From the NCBI GenBank assembly GCA_018434685.1, contig JAHDOV010000019.1:1-64000 (forward strand): 64,000 nt of DNA. The letters are read 5' to 3'. Shown here piece after piece: positions 9,379 to 61,054 of the stretch. The stretch is from Deltaproteobacteria bacterium (GTDB taxonomy: Bacteria; Desulfobacterota; Desulfomonilia; UBA1062). The notes under the pieces are model-generated. The model had not been told where the DNA came from. It was given only the letters and a program-made list of their open reading frames with translations, and made no database searches. Every line of letters begins with the position of its first letter. Position 1 is the stretch's first letter. The position numbers were made by a program, and so were the translations under genes.

Positions 9379-10584
<1,206 letters not shown>

Positions 10585-10618
10585 AGTCGTTTCCTTTCAA
10601 TAGAGAGAGTTGTTTCTA

Positions 10619-11326
10619 TTACACACCGATAAACGGCATCGATACAAAATACAGCCCCAGCAAAAGGATAATCACCCCGGCCCCTTTTTTGAACAGCATG
10701 GCCGAATTGCTCCAGGTACTGTTTTCCAGCAGGCGCTTGACCATGGCGGTGGAACTGCCCGCGACCATGATGGGCAGGCAGTGGCCCACGGCAAAGAGCA
10801 GGATCATCACAACCCCGGTCATGATCTTCTCCTGTATGGTGATCACGGCCAGAATGGGCGCGATGAACCCGAAGGTGCAGGTCCCGGACAGAACCCCGTA
10901 GGCAAGCCCGAGCCCGAACGCCCCGAGGATACCCCTGAAATTGAGCCGGTGAAGCAGCCCTCCCGACATGGTGCACTTCTCCACGCCCAGCATGCCGAGT
11001 GATATCCAGATGAGTATGCCTCCCACCAGGACCATCCAGAAACCGCCGACATCGCCGAGCATTCGTCCCATCATGGCGCAGATGACGCCCACCAGGGCAA
11101 TGGTGATGAAGAGCCCGGTGGTGAATGCGATCGAATAGAATGCAGCGAGAGACGGCTTCACCTCTCGCTGCTGGCCGCCCACATAGGCAATGATGAGCGG
11201 GATGGATGCCAGGTGACAGGGGCTCAGCATCACGCTCACCATACCCCAGAGGAATGCCGCGGTTGCCGCGACCATGGTCCCTGCGGTCAGCCATTCGTTG
11301 ATGGTGATGAAAAACGTCTGCAGCAT
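10619..11326 (-). CDS. CcdA/DsbD-like thiol-disulfide transmembrane protein
   Basis: This 235-residue CcdA-type protein has six membrane helices; the paired redox cysteines are in LSPCHLASIPL (Cys37) and SGTCTFGFIAP. CcdA passes electrons from cytoplasmic thioredoxin to extracytoplasmic thiol proteins. The adjacent exported thioredoxin is the obvious partner. In this context it may keep periplasmic thiols, or the rhodanese/MauE relay, reduced during arsenic or sulfur detoxification. Confidence 0.88.
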   Translation of the reverse strand: MLQTFFITINEWLTAGTMVAATAAFLWGMVSVMLSPCHLASIPLIIAYVGGQQREVKPSLAAFYSIAFTTGLFITIALVGVICAMMGRMLGDVGGFWMVLVGGILIWISLGMLGVEKCTMSGGLLHRLNFRGILGAFGLGLAYGVLSGTCTFGFIAPILAVITIQEKIMTGVVMILLFAVGHCLPIMVAGSSTAMVKRLLENSTWSNSAMLFKKGAGVIILLLGLYFVSMPFIGV

Positions 11327-11396
11327 CAGAACTCCTCCTTGAGCCGGCGTTCTTCATGAACAGATGTCGTTGAATATCTTCCTTTTCCTGCATTCT

Positions 11397-11780
11397 TCAT
11401 CCCTCGACCCCCATCTTTTTCAGCTGTTCAGTGATGGCCTCTTCAGACATGAATCCCACATGCCGGTAGACCTCCTTGCCTTCCCGGTCGAAGAAGACCT
11501 GGGTCGGGATGGCGCGGACCTGGAAGCGCTGAACCTGGTCCCGGTGATAGCGCAGGTCGATGAAGATGATCGCGGCCTTACCCTCGTAGCGTTTTTTTGC
11601 CTTCTCCAGGATGGGCTCCATCATCTTGCACGGGATGCACGAGCCTGCGCCCAGGTCAACCATGGTCACCATGTCCGCGACCGGAATGGTGGGGAGTTCC
11701 TCTGCAGATACCGGTGCGTTCCCTGAAAATACGAGCAAGTATGCAAGAAGAAAGACAAAGAACATTCCCTTTGAATTCAT
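11397..11780 (-). CDS. Exported thioredoxin-fold protein
   Basis: This 127-residue protein has an N-terminal signal peptide (about residues 1-26) and a thioredoxin domain with active site SCIPC (Cys48, Cys51) and a cis-Pro loop RAIPTQVFFD. It should act outside the cytoplasm as a disulfide reductase. The start at 11780 follows AAGGAG; a longer frame has no ribosome site. It sits just upstream of ccdA, which probably supplies its electrons. Confidence 0.9.
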   Translation of the reverse strand: MNSKGMFFVFLLAYLLVFSGNAPVSAEELPTIPVADMVTMVDLGAGSCIPCKMMEPILEKAKKRYEGKAAIIFIDLRYHRDQVQRFQVRAIPTQVFFDREGKEVYRHVGFMSEEAITEQLKKMGVEG

Positions 11781-11821
11781 GAGTACTCCTTTTTTGATTT
11801 TTCTTAACCGGATAGTAAACA

Positions 11822-12115
11822 TCAGCAACATTTCCCTGTACCGGTGCTGCCGCAGGAACAGCCTCCGGCGGTCTGTGCCGAGGGCATGGTTTCAGGAACC
11901 TTGTTGCGCGATCTATCGATCATCTCTGATGAAAGAGAGTAGATGTCGTTCATTGGCCGTTCCTTCACCGTCTTTGCCATCGTTATGGCCTCTTCGATTT
12001 CTTCCAGGGTGCAGCCATGACTCAGTACCTCTTTGAAATGATACCGCAGGCACGGCATGCAGTTGCCGGCAATGGATGCGGCGACTGCAATCAGTTCGCG
12101 TGATTTGTTGTCCAA
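11822..12115 (-). CDS. Carboxymuconolactone decarboxylase/AhpD-like protein
   Basis: This 97-residue AhpD-like protein has the catalytic CxxC and His (GNCMPCLRYHFKEVL; Cys19, Cys22, His26) typical of CMD-family thiol peroxidase or reductase adaptors. A C-terminal tail rich in Cys (GGCSCGSTGTGKCC) is added and could bind As(III) or another soft metal. It lies between arsC and the thioredoxin gene, consistent with a redox role in arsenate reduction or metalloid handling. Confidence 0.82.
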   Translation of the reverse strand: MDNKSRELIAVAASIAGNCMPCLRYHFKEVLSHGCTLEEIEEAITMAKTVKERPMNDIYSLSSEMIDRSRNKVPETMPSAQTAGGCSCGSTGTGKCC

Positions 12116-12134
12116 GACATTATTTCCTGTTATT

Positions 12135-12575
12135 TCATTCTCCTTTTGTATTGATGCGTTCCTCGATCCAGGTCCTGACCTGCTGACCGATCAGGTCGCG
12201 GACCTGCCTGAACTTTGTGAGTTTATCCGGATCTGTTCCTTTAAATGCCACAGGGTCTTCGAAGTCCCAGTGTTCCCGCCTGGCGGCACCAGGAAAAACC
12301 GCGGGGCAGTTGATGTCGGCATGTGAACAGACCGTAATCACATAACTGAAGTGCATGGTGCCAAGGTAGTGGTCGAGGTGCTTTGAGGTGTGGCCGCTCA
12401 TGTCGATGCCGATCTCCTCCATAACCTGTATGGTCAGGGGGTGTAATCCTTTTGGTTCCAGCCCGGCACTGAAGGCCTCGAAATGCTCGGAACCATATGC
12501 CCTCAGGAAGGCCTCTGCCATCTGCGAGCGTGCGGAGTTCCCTGTGCACAGAAACAACACGCGGATTTTGTCCAT
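12135..12575 (-). CDS. arsC: Thioredoxin-coupled arsenate reductase
   Basis: This 146-residue arsenate reductase of the low-molecular-weight phosphatase fold has the P-loop CTGNSARSQ (Cys10 to Arg16) and the redox Cys83 and Cys90 (TVCSHADINC), matching the Cys10/82/89 triad of the thioredoxin-dependent ArsC of Staphylococcus. It converts As(V) to As(III), which ACR3 exports or ArsM methylates. The ATG at 12575 is preferred because AAGGAGG precedes it. Small thioredoxins flank it. Confidence 0.93.
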   Translation of the reverse strand: MDKIRVLFLCTGNSARSQMAEAFLRAYGSEHFEAFSAGLEPKGLHPLTIQVMEEIGIDMSGHTSKHLDHYLGTMHFSYVITVCSHADINCPAVFPGAARREHWDFEDPVAFKGTDPDKLTKFRQVRDLIGQQVRTWIEERINTKGE

Positions 12576-12604
12576 GGTATCCTCCTTGAGCACGGAGTGC
12601 GAGA

Positions 12605-12838
12605 CTATTTGAGCAGGTCCTCGATATCGGCAGGGGAGGGAACCTTGCCCACCACCTTTACCTCGCCGTCCACCACGAGCGCAGGGGTTGTCATGACCCC
12701 GAAGCTCATGATCTTGTTGATGTCGGTGACCTTTTCAATCTCATACTCAATGCCCAGCGATTTGGCGGCTGTTTCCGTGTTTGCAGCCAGCTTGGTGCAT
12801 TTTGAGCATCCTGTCCCCAGTATCTGAATCTTTTTCAT
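12605..12838 (-). CDS. Small thioredoxin-like redox protein
   Basis: This 77-residue protein is of the redox-active disulfide protein 2 (thioredoxin_3) family, with active site TGCSKCTKL (Cys11, Cys14) and cis-Pro motif MTTPALVVDG. Such proteins commonly neighbour ArsP-type permeases and may reduce or deliver the transported species. It lies 14 bases after the permease gene and is likely cotranscribed. Confidence 0.9.
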   Translation of the reverse strand: MKKIQILGTGCSKCTKLAANTETAAKSLGIEYEIEKVTDINKIMSFGVMTTPALVVDGEVKVVGKVPSPADIEDLLK

Positions 12839-12852
12839 GTGTGTCTCCTTTC

Positions 12853-14148
12853 TTAGAATAATGTGCCGTAGATCATGCCCGATATGGTGGCAAGGATCAC
12901 GACGAGGATTACGTATACGAGAGTTTTCTTTGTCCCGATGACGCTGCGGATCACGAGCATGTTGGGCAGCGAGACCGCAGGTCCGGCAAGAAGCAGTGCC
13001 AGGGCTGGGCCTTTGCCCATGCCCGCGCCGATGAGCCCCTGAAGGATGGGCACCTCGGTGAGCGTGGCGAAGTACATGAGTGCACCGGCTACGGAGGCAA
13101 ATAAGTTCGCCCAGAGTGTATTGCCGCCCACCGCGGAGCTCACCCAGGCAGAGGGGATGATCCCCTCGTAGCCGGGCCTGCCGAGCAGCATGCCGGCAAC
13201 GAGCACCCCGGCAAAGAGGATGGGCATGATCTGCTTTGCAAAGAACCAGGAACCGTCGAACCAGTCGTGCATCTCTCCCTCCTGGGTGGCGGTGATGACC
13301 GAGAGGCCGACTATGCCGGCGGCAAACGCCACCATGGGTTCGTGCGGGACAAGCGCAGCAAAAACGGCCGTGGCACCCGCGACGAGCACTATTTTCCATA
13401 TCCTTACCTGAAACCATGCGAAGAGCATGACCCCGAGCCCTGCTGCACATGCTCCAGTCAGAATCCATTTCAAGGAGTATATGGCATGCCATAGACCCTC
13501 TGCAGAAGAGGGTTTGCCCCAGTTGGCAAAGACCAGGACGGCGATCATGGAGGCAAAGTACAGAGCAGTCTGCCACAGGGGTCTGTCGTCATCCCCTGTC
13601 GGCATCGCTGCAGCCTTCACCTTGGCTGCCTCCTCCTTCCGGAAGATGAGGTGCATCATGAGCCCTATCACAACAGAAAATATAATGGCCCCTGCTGCGC
13701 GGGCAACGCCCAGTTCCAGACCGAGTATGCGGGCAGTGAGGATGATGGCCAGGATATTGATGGCCGGGCCGGAATAGAGGAACGCCACTGCCGGGCCGAG
13801 CCCGGCCCCCATGCGGTAGATGCCTGCAAACAGAGGCAGGATGGTGCATGAGCACACCGCCAGGATGGTGCCCGAGACCGATGCAACTCCGTAGGCCATA
13901 ACCTTTTTCGCATCAGCACCTAAGTATTTCATGACCGAGTTCTGCGACAGAAACACCCCGATTGCCCCTGCGATGAAAAAGGCAGGCAGCAGGCAGAGGA
14001 TCACATGTTCCCGGGCATAGGCCTTTGCCAAAAGCAGCCCTTCGAGCACGGCATTGTCAAACCTGGGCAGCCCCACCGGGAGGTAGAACAGGGCAAGGAA
14101 CAACCCGGTAAGACCAGCCAGCCATTTCCATTCTTCTTTCAAGCTCAT
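12853..14148 (-). CDS. ArsP-like permease (DUF318/UPF0718)
   Basis: This 431-residue permease of the DUF318 family includes ArsP, which exports trivalent organoarsenicals. It has about ten helices in two halves, each with a conserved motif: AVCSCTILPLFAGIYRMGAG and LYSGPAINILA in the first, LTEVPILQGLIG and LLAGPAVSLPNM in the second. It is cotranscribed with ArsR and a small thioredoxin. An ArsM is divergently encoded, so export of methylated arsenicals is an attractive substrate assignment, but other metals are possible. Confidence 0.85.
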   Translation of the reverse strand: MSLKEEWKWLAGLTGLFLALFYLPVGLPRFDNAVLEGLLLAKAYAREHVILCLLPAFFIAGAIGVFLSQNSVMKYLGADAKKVMAYGVASVSGTILAVCSCTILPLFAGIYRMGAGLGPAVAFLYSGPAINILAIILTARILGLELGVARAAGAIIFSVVIGLMMHLIFRKEEAAKVKAAAMPTGDDDRPLWQTALYFASMIAVLVFANWGKPSSAEGLWHAIYSLKWILTGACAAGLGVMLFAWFQVRIWKIVLVAGATAVFAALVPHEPMVAFAAGIVGLSVITATQEGEMHDWFDGSWFFAKQIMPILFAGVLVAGMLLGRPGYEGIIPSAWVSSAVGGNTLWANLFASVAGALMYFATLTEVPILQGLIGAGMGKGPALALLLAGPAVSLPNMLVIRSVIGTKKTLVYVILVVILATISGMIYGTLF

Positions 14149-14209
14149 AGATGTTCCTTTCGTATATGGTTGCTTGGCAATATCGCCAAGTTCTCGAGTA
14201 AAAATAACC

Positions 14210-14536
14210 TCACGCTTCTTCCGCCAAGTTAAGATGCTCCTGGATTTTCACCTGCATCATGTCTTCAACACAGCGGAAAAAACTGGCGGCGCAGTGCATT
14301 CTCAAGGTATAGAATACCTGGTTGCCGCGTTTTTCGTCACTTACCACGTTCGCGTTCTTGAGTACCGAGAGGTGTTTTGAAACGGTAGAGATGTCAGAGC
14401 CGATCATCTCGGTGAGTTCGCAGACACACCGCTTACCCCTGGCGAGCTCGTCCACGATAAAGAGCCTCGTGGGGTGTGCCAGGGCCTTCAATATTCTGGC
14501 TCGCGCCTCGAACCGTGCATAGGTCAGTTTGTCCAT
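14210..14536 (-). CDS. arsR: ArsR-family repressor heading the arsenic operon
   Basis: This 108-residue winged-helix repressor has the As(III)-type motif KRCVCELTEMIG (Cys37, Cys39) and recognition helix DISTVSKHLSVLK. The start at 14536 follows AAGGAG. It is the first gene of the minus-strand train, 61 bases before the permease, and the promoter at 14557-14585 lies directly upstream, so it probably autoregulates the whole operon and releases DNA on binding arsenite. Confidence 0.92.
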   Translation of the reverse strand: MDKLTYARFEARARILKALAHPTRLFIVDELARGKRCVCELTEMIGSDISTVSKHLSVLKNANVVSDEKRGNQVFYTLRMHCAASFFRCVEDMMQVKIQEHLNLAEEA

Positions 14537-14550
14537 AGTCAGACTCCTTA

Positions 14551-14585
14551 TTTGGCTAAATGGCAAAATAGGCAAATGATGTCAA
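14551..14585 (-). promoter_or_regulatory. Promoter/operator of the arsR-led operon
   Basis: On the minus strand TTGACA (14580-14585) is followed after 17 bases by a weak -10, CATTTA (14557-14562). Between and across them three phased TTTGCC/TTTTGCC/TTTAGCC repeats form a likely operator for the adjacent ArsR. It faces away from the arsM promoter. Confidence 0.6.
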
Positions 14586-14827: not shown

Positions 14828-15619
14828 ATGAAGACATTCAGCGATACGGTGAAACGAGTCGTCAGAGAAAAATATGCCTCCATCGCCGTCTCGAATAACC
14901 CGGGCGGGTGTGGCTGCTGTGGCGGCGAGGGAAACTCCTTTGTGAATATCCTGGCCCAGGGCGAAAAGTGCGGCTACTCGCAGGAACAGCTCCTCGACGA
15001 GCTGGCCCAGGCGAATCTCGGGCTGGGCTGCGGCAACCCCATAAGCCTTGCAGACCTCAGGCAGGGGGAGACCGTGCTCGACTTGGGAAGCGGGGCCGGG
15101 TTCGATGCCTTTCTGGCCGCACAGGCAGTCGGTGCCCAGGGACGGGTGATAGGAGTCGACATGACCTGTGAGATGGTGCGTCAGGCGCAAAAGAATGCAG
15201 CGACCCTGGGGCTGGGCAATGTCGAATTCCGGCAGGGGGAAATAGAGGAACTGCCCGTTGGGGATGCCTGCGTGGATGTGGTGATCTCGAACTGCGTGAT
15301 CAACTTGAGCCCGGACAAGGCTGCTGTCTACCGGGAGATTCACCGGGTGCTCAAACCCGGCGGACGCGTCAGTATCTCCGATGTCATGCTCTCGGGCGAA
15401 CTGCCCGATGAATTCAGGAACGACATCGATGCCTATACGGCCTGAATATCGGGCGCTATCTCACCCGGTGAGGTGAGACAGATGCTCGACGAGGCAGGCT
15501 TCACTGATATTTCCATTACGAGAAAGGGAAACAGCGACGAGATCATCAAGGGCTGGAACATAGGCGAGAATTCCAAAGAGCTGATATTCTCGGGTTATGT
15601 CCGTGCCGTCAAACCGTGA
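14828..15619 (+). CDS. arsM: Arsenite methyltransferase ArsM, putative selenoprotein
   Basis: This 263-residue SAM-dependent arsenite methyltransferase has SAM motif VLDLGSGAGFDAFLAA (about 83-98), GVDMTCEMV and PGGRVSISDV. Residue 206 is encoded by UGA (15443-15445) and falls exactly where ArsM has its third arsenic-binding Cys (DAYTA-U-ISGAISPGE); the other two correspond to Cys68 and Cys156. The frame continues with 57 further typical ArsM residues to a UGA at 15617. A hairpin suited to SECIS follows the recoded codon. It methylates As(III) to volatile or exportable forms. The start at 14828 follows a GGGAGA site. Sec insertion is inferred, not shown. Confidence 0.88.
15443..15478 (+). promoter_or_regulatory. 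SECIS-like hairpin in arsM
   Basis: Thirteen bases after the in-frame UGA, UCUCACC (15459-15465) pairs perfectly with GGUGAGA (15472-15478), enclosing the six-base loop CGGUGA. The distance and a GG/GU-containing apical loop agree with bacterial SECIS elements. Confidence 0.65.
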
Positions 15620-15632
15620 AACGGGGCGTGAA

Positions 15633-16040
15633 GTGACAAAGAAGGAGTGCACATGTGGGCAGAAATATGCAGACTGCGATACCATCAAGGACCTGTCCCC
15701 AGAAGCTTGCAAGCAGGTTCTCGCAGAGCTCTCCAAGGGGATTGCCCATCCGGCCCGGATACAGATCGTCAATATCCTGGCAAACAAGCCTGCCGGGAGG
15801 CGGTGCATCTGCGGAGACATCGTCAATGCACTGCCCCTTGCGCAGTCGAGCGTGTCGCAGCATCTCAAGGTGCTCAAGGAAACAGGCTGGATCCACGGAG
15901 AGATCCAGGGCCCGAGCGTGTGCTACTGCCTGGTGGAGGATATCCTGAGCTACTACAAGGAGCTCTTGCACCGGGCCATCGAGGCCGGTAAAAACAGCAC
16001 AGATGTGACCGACCCGGTGGATGCTGTCACAGGAATATGA
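15633..16040 (+). CDS. ArsR-family regulator downstream of arsM
   Basis: This 135-residue ArsR-type repressor has metal motif RRCICGDIV (Cys58, Cys60), recognition helix LAQSSVSQHLKVLK and further N-terminal cysteines (ECTCGQKYADC) not usual in the family. A GTG at 15633 is chosen because it clears the arsM stop and has a GGGGCG ribosome site; an ATG at 15597 inside arsM is an alternative that adds 12 residues. It lies between arsM and the HesB selenoprotein gene and probably binds the palindrome in front of arsM. Confidence 0.85.
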   Translation: MTKKECTCGQKYADCDTIKDLSPEACKQVLAELSKGIAHPARIQIVNILANKPAGRRCICGDIVNALPLAQSSVSQHLKVLKETGWIHGEIQGPSVCYCLVEDILSYYKELLHRAIEAGKNSTDVTDPVDAVTGI

Positions 16041-16088: not shown

Positions 16089-16403
16089 ATGTTGGAAGTA
16101 ACAGAAAAGGCAACAGAGATGGTCAGGGAATTCTTCAAGTCCCGTGACCAGATCCAGCCGCTGAGGATCATTGTCGCCGGCGCTGGTTGAAAGGGGCCCA
16201 CACTGGGCATGGCTCTGGATGAGCCAAAAGAGACAGATGAGGTATTCGAGAAGGCCGAATTCACGTTTGTGATCGACAAGAGTCTGCTTGCGCAGGCCCA
16301 GCCGGTAAACGTGGATTTCATCTCAAACGAATCAGGCCAGGGATTCATTATCACCTCAGGCCTGACCAGCGACAAAGACTGCGGCGGCTGTACGAGCTGC
16401 TAG
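16089..16403 (+). CDS. HesB/IscA-like selenoprotein (in-frame UGA)
   Basis: Reading through UGA at 16188-16190 yields a 104-residue A-type iron-sulfur carrier-like protein: MLEVTEKATEMVREFFKSRD, LRIIVAGAG-U34-KGPTLGMALDEP, and C-terminal DCGGCTSC (Cys98, Cys101, Cys104). U34 occupies the first conserved Cys of IscA/SufA, and HesB-like selenoproteins with Sec here are known. The strong ribosome site GAAAGGAGAAAGG precedes the ATG. Its place between arsR and an oxidoreductase in an arsenic region suggests a redox or metalloid-binding role instead of housekeeping Fe-S assembly. A SECIS-like hairpin follows. Confidence 0.88.
16188..16226 (+). promoter_or_regulatory. SECIS-like hairpin in the first HesB selenoprotein
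   Basis: Nineteen bases after UGA, UGGCUC (16210-16215) pairs with GAGCCA (16221-16226) around the loop UGGAU. A second short hairpin, GCCCA-CAC-UGGGC, lies between. The other HesB selenoprotein gene in this window has the same GGCUC/GAGCC stem at nearly the same distance, which supports function. Confidence 0.6.
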
Positions 16404-60766: not shown

Positions 60767-61054
60767 ATGGTTTCACTTACTCTAGCAGCACGGGAAAAAC
60801 TCACCCAGCTTCATGAGGGAAAACAGATAAAACCGATCCGCATCGTTCAGGAGGTCTCCTGAGGCACCTCGGTGCTGAAGCTGGCTCCGGGAGAGCCGGG
60901 AGACAATGACGAAGTATACCACGAAGGCGGGTTCACTATCGTGGTGAACAGGTATCTGTCCGACAGATTCGGTCCGTTTACCATCGATTCCACCCTCAAG
61001 GGGTTGGTGATCCGTTCGAAACTGACAGGCACAGGCCGCTCCTGCAGGGGATAG
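60767..61054 (+). CDS. HesB/IscA-like selenoprotein, second copy (in-frame UGA)
   Basis: Reading through UGA at 60860-60862 gives a 95-residue A-type carrier-like protein: MVSLTLAAREKLTQLHEGKQ, PIRIVQEVS-U32-GTSVLKLAP, then FTIVVNRYLSDRFGPFTIDS. U32 is at the first IscA Cys position. Of the usual C-terminal Cys pair only one remains (GRSCRG, Cys93). The AGGAGG site fits the ATG. It lies alone between the RNA element and an MFS gene. It shares little sequence with the HesB protein at 16089, so it is not a recent copy. Confidence 0.82.
60860..60899 (+). promoter_or_regulatory. SECIS-like hairpin in the second HesB selenoprotein
   Basis: Eighteen bases after UGA, CUGGCUC (60881-60887) pairs with GAGCCGG (60893-60899) around CGGGA. 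The GGCUC/GAGCC stem and distance match those in the first HesB gene although the encoded residues differ. Confidence 0.6.

Follow-up and report, generated by a model that had tools for sequence, protein, structure and literature searches.

In the arsenite methyltransferase CmArsM, As(III) is bound by Cys72, Cys174 and Cys224 (PMC3877260), and in mouse AS3MT, Cys157 and Cys207 are redox-active As-binding residues according to Fomenko et al., as cited in later work (PMC3877260, PMC4211708). Forms of ArsM carrying selenocysteine (Sec) have also been recorded: a 2008 ocean survey found 8 (PMC2398784), a 2016 survey counted 41 in 39 organisms (PMC5029168), and a 2022 review, citing Fomenko et al. 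2007, names arsenite methyltransferase (PRK11873, WP_011987699.1) among the experimentally verified selenoprotein families (PMC9312934). The motif of the Sec form is given as UxxG in a 2026 review (PMC13188914). Here we analyzed a 64,000-nucleotide stretch of a Deltaproteobacteria contig (hereafter the window), in which a frame encoding ArsM contains an in-frame UGA codon. Because Sec-ArsM with a UxxG motif is already a listed selenoprotein family, catalogued since about 2007, the window gene adds a member to a known family and is not a new kind of selenoprotein.

The arsM frame (Table 1) reads TGA at codon 206, continues for 57 codons and ends at a TGA stop (15617-15619). Its product scores 326.8 bits against the NF008823 (arsenite methyltransferase / PRK11873) profile, above the curated cut-off of 263, and its one Sec lies in a UxxG motif (U206-I-S-G). 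In these respects it shows no difference in kind from the Sec arsenite methyltransferase exemplified by WP_011987699.1, the likeness being drawn from profile and motif. The initial annotation had proposed that the UGA replaces the third As(III)-ligand Cys, with Cys68 and Cys156 as the other two ligands, and had called for a structure-based alignment to CrArsM. The three assignments were borne out by a phmmer alignment to CmArsM (PDB 4fr0, 4kw7), which places C68, C156 and U206 opposite Cys72, Cys174 and Cys224, such that the conserved Cys does not fall elsewhere than in the U206 column. An AlphaFold2 model of the protein (mean pLDDT 81, with low confidence in the Cys-rich N-terminal part) retrieved the CmArsM and CrArsM structures as best matches in a structure search (Z ~23). 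The fold, the SAM domain and the three As-ligand positions are thus the same as in the Cys forms CmArsM, CrArsM and human and mouse AS3MT, whereas Cys224 of CmArsM (Cys206/207 in mammals) is replaced by Sec in the window protein, which is also shorter. From this homology, we infer that As(III) is the substrate.

Table 1. Features of the arsM locus in the window
Feature	Position	Strand	Basis
arsM, arsenite S-adenosylmethyltransferase, 263 aa, predicted selenocysteine at 206	14828..15619	+	NF008823 profile score; fold match to CmArsM/CrArsM
UGA, codon 206, predicted to be read as selenocysteine; opposite CmArsM Cys224	15443..15445	+	frame reading and alignment; same column in 15 single-UGA relatives
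Cys68, equivalent of CmArsM Cys72 (As ligand)	15029..15031	+	alignment; invariant among compared sequences
Cys156, equivalent of CmArsM Cys174 (As ligand)	15293..15295	+	alignment; invariant among compared sequences
Bacterial SECIS-like hairpin, stem 15459-15465/15472-15478	15459..15478	+	folding, conservation, covariation; published bSECIS criteria
ArsR-family regulator adjoining arsM	15636..16040	+	NF033788 barely above cut-off; same place in L010 and L011
IscA/HesB-family selenoprotein, UGA 16188-16190 (U-K-G-P)	16089..16403	+	NF038090, 112.4 bits vs cut-off 85; UGA kept in L010 and L011
Rest of arsenic cluster: ACR3 efflux pump, CcdA-like, thioredoxin-like proteins, ArsC, ArsE-like thioredoxin, SaoE/SO_0444-like permease, ArsR	9379..14575	-	neighbourhood annotation

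The gene lies in an arsenic cluster that holds two ArsR regulators. The window and two genomes of its family (L010 and L011) share the gene order arsM(Sec)-arsR-hesB(Sec); most of the other Sec-ArsM genes tested have ACR3, CcdA, permease or thioredoxin genes nearby, and most of the Sec relatives tested are located in an ars cluster. Elsewhere in the window, a second, diverged IscA/HesB-like frame (~60770-61051, + strand) contains a UGA (60860-60862) followed by a 7-bp hairpin and scores 41 bits against NF038090, below the cut-off of 85; it is possibly a further selenoprotein. Scanning the window for further UGA genes returned mostly wrong-frame noise.

Related methyltransferase domains with Sec in a UxxG motif, as in the window ArsM, occur in the ArsM/AhpD (NF041537), ArsM/DUF2284 (NF041536) and methyltransferase/UXPK-star (NF047649) selenoproteins. 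In contrast to the window ArsM, which falls far under their cut-offs, these are multi-Sec proteins. Against NF041537 it scores 190.9 bits, compared with a cut-off of 510, and the match covers the methyltransferase part only, with no fused AhpD domain; the AhpD-type relatives are without Cys156, whereas the window ArsM has it. Members of another ArsM-like selenoprotein lineage (L032, L033, L035, L036, L137 and L138) display Sec at the third ligand column, a Gly in place of Cys156 and a changed Cys68 column, and because of these two changes they may not methylate arsenite. As the ArsM/AhpD-type selenoproteins keep the Sec column despite a Cys156 to Gly replacement and a changed Cys68 column, chemistry of another kind can also preserve a Sec, and the window gene might encode a selenoprotein of ArsM ancestry whose main substrate is not arsenite, acting instead on another metalloid or in thiol chemistry. 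We consider this improbable, given that the window protein retains all three ligand positions and that its gene belongs to an arsenic resistance cluster in which ACR3, ArsC and ArsR are also encoded.

If the UGA encodes Sec in an arsenite methyltransferase, it should recur among homologues, and a survey of these for UGA or Cys had been suggested from the start. Relatives were drawn from close relatives, 395 genomes of the phylum and public genome contigs. Including that of the window, 16 genes for a single-domain ArsM contain one in-frame UGA, always at the codon-206 column; the 15 relatives comprise 13 from the same phylum and 2 from Nitrospirota, and none of the relatives examined has a true stop at this UGA with a separate downstream gene. 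In the tree, 15 Sec ArsM genes (window included) form one clade (SH-aLRT 99), and a single origin that includes the 16th, from G155, is not rejected (p-AU 0.69), such that this gene may belong to the Sec clade too. The G155 gene (L136, G155:C69:23708-24487, - strand) stands alone on a long branch and encodes a Cys directly before the Sec (SCUISGA); either its Cys was changed to Sec independently, or it may be a clade member that has diverged. The ratio dN/dS after the UGA is 0.11-0.36, near the upstream value in most pairs, which indicates that purifying selection continues past the UGA; the further in-frame ArsM residues counted in the initial annotation are indeed 57 in number and conserved. 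One Sec ArsM and one Cys ArsM are found in genome G003, and in the window's genome we found one ArsM match, the Sec form.

A perfect 7-bp hairpin reported 13 bases 3′ of the UGA proved exact. It consists of TCTCACC, the 6-nt loop CGGTGA and GGTGAGA, and folding of the 45 nt from the UGA gives -17.7 kcal/mol (z -2.9). The bacterial SECIS (bSECIS) model calls for a loop of 3-9 nt, a stem of 4-16 bp, a G within the first two loop bases, a UGA-to-loop distance of 16-37 nt and a folding energy of -7.5 kcal/mol or below (PMC13188914). With its loop and stem lengths, a G second in the loop, a loop 20 nt from the UGA and the above energy, the window hairpin agrees with the model on every point. The hairpin is also kept in relatives beyond chance: all 7 pairs form in the same register in 13 of the 15 Sec genes tested (window included), which corresponds to all 13 main-clade members, compared with 0 of 88 Cys homologues. 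Both-sided changes occur at 3 of the 7 stem pairs (8 such cells, where shuffles give 2.4), and pairing falls from 100% to 50-59% once the register is slid. The hairpin of the two Nitrospirota relatives is weaker and shifted by about one codon. Since synonymous re-coding alone yields the full stem with P ~0.005-0.02 per sequence, the evidence for the hairpin comes mostly from the fact that relatives conserve it, and protein-level constraint (motif SPGEV) accounts for part of the hairpin. An Rfam search at the hairpin gave no family above threshold, a result that does not weigh against it because bacterial SECIS elements are too variable.

The host genome encodes a tRNA-Sec with anticodon UCA (71.8 bits vs a cut-off of 47), as well as SelA, SelB and SelD, each above its profile cut-off, which makes a complete Sec machinery. 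The selD gene (L140, G000:C22:160214-161134, - strand) has a UGA in the sequence for its active site, GSGUACKLG, so that SelD itself needs recoding. One could still argue that the arsM UGA, formally a stop codon, is a real stop, resulting from pseudogenization or sequencing error or yielding a shortened 205-residue ArsM, all the more so as the methyltransferase core lies mostly upstream of it. We regard this as very unlikely: truncation would lose the third As ligand, the same UGA is found in 15 relatives, the 57 residues after it are conserved under purifying selection, and a SECIS-like hairpin and the full Sec machinery are present. We thus rejected a true stop, a pseudogene and a sequencing error on the basis of relatives, selection, hairpin and machinery. 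Still less likely is a reading of the UGA as another amino acid, such as Trp or Cys, via a changed code or a suppressor, since, even if an open frame alone is silent on the inserted residue, arsM itself terminates in UGA, the genome has tRNA-Sec (anticodon UCA), SelA, SelB and SelD, and in both HesB and SelD the UGA occupies a known Sec position. Taken together, the structure alignment, the 15 same-column relatives, the covarying hairpin, purifying selection and the complete Sec machinery support selenocysteine as the residue encoded by the UGA, in the place of the third As(III) ligand, and we are highly confident that the window arsM genuinely encodes an arsenite methyltransferase of the selenoprotein type.

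Given a conserved hairpin and the Sec machinery, we propose that the ribosome would place Sec at the UGA at 15443 from tRNA-Sec delivered by SelB, which would bind the hairpin just 3′ of this codon. By homology, As(III) would be held by Cys68, Cys156 and Sec206 and methylated with S-adenosylmethionine. By analogy with mouse AS3MT, in which such a role has been proposed for the corresponding Cys207, Sec206 is most likely both an arsenic ligand and the redox-active partner of Cys156, with which it would form a selenenylsulfide within the catalytic cycle, and the thioredoxin-like proteins of the cluster are possible reductants. Sec at the metalloid site may alter arsenic affinity. As our search of the genome yielded no further ArsM, arsenic methylation in this organism should depend on selenium supply. 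A stronger version, in which the Sec206 selenolate ligates As directly in catalysis and, as part of the sole ArsM found, makes methylation strictly selenium-dependent, in parallel with the selenoprotein HesB encoded next to it, is tentative and may well not hold.

The 2026 review (PMC13188914) describes the bacterial function of Sec ArsM as largely uncharacterised, and our analysis contributes to this family one further case with good support, together with a clade whose members come from several families. Standard gene prediction would terminate these genes at the UGA, with the third arsenic ligand lost. The arsM(Sec)-arsR-hesB(Sec) order suggests a connection of arsenic handling to selenium supply that can be tested.
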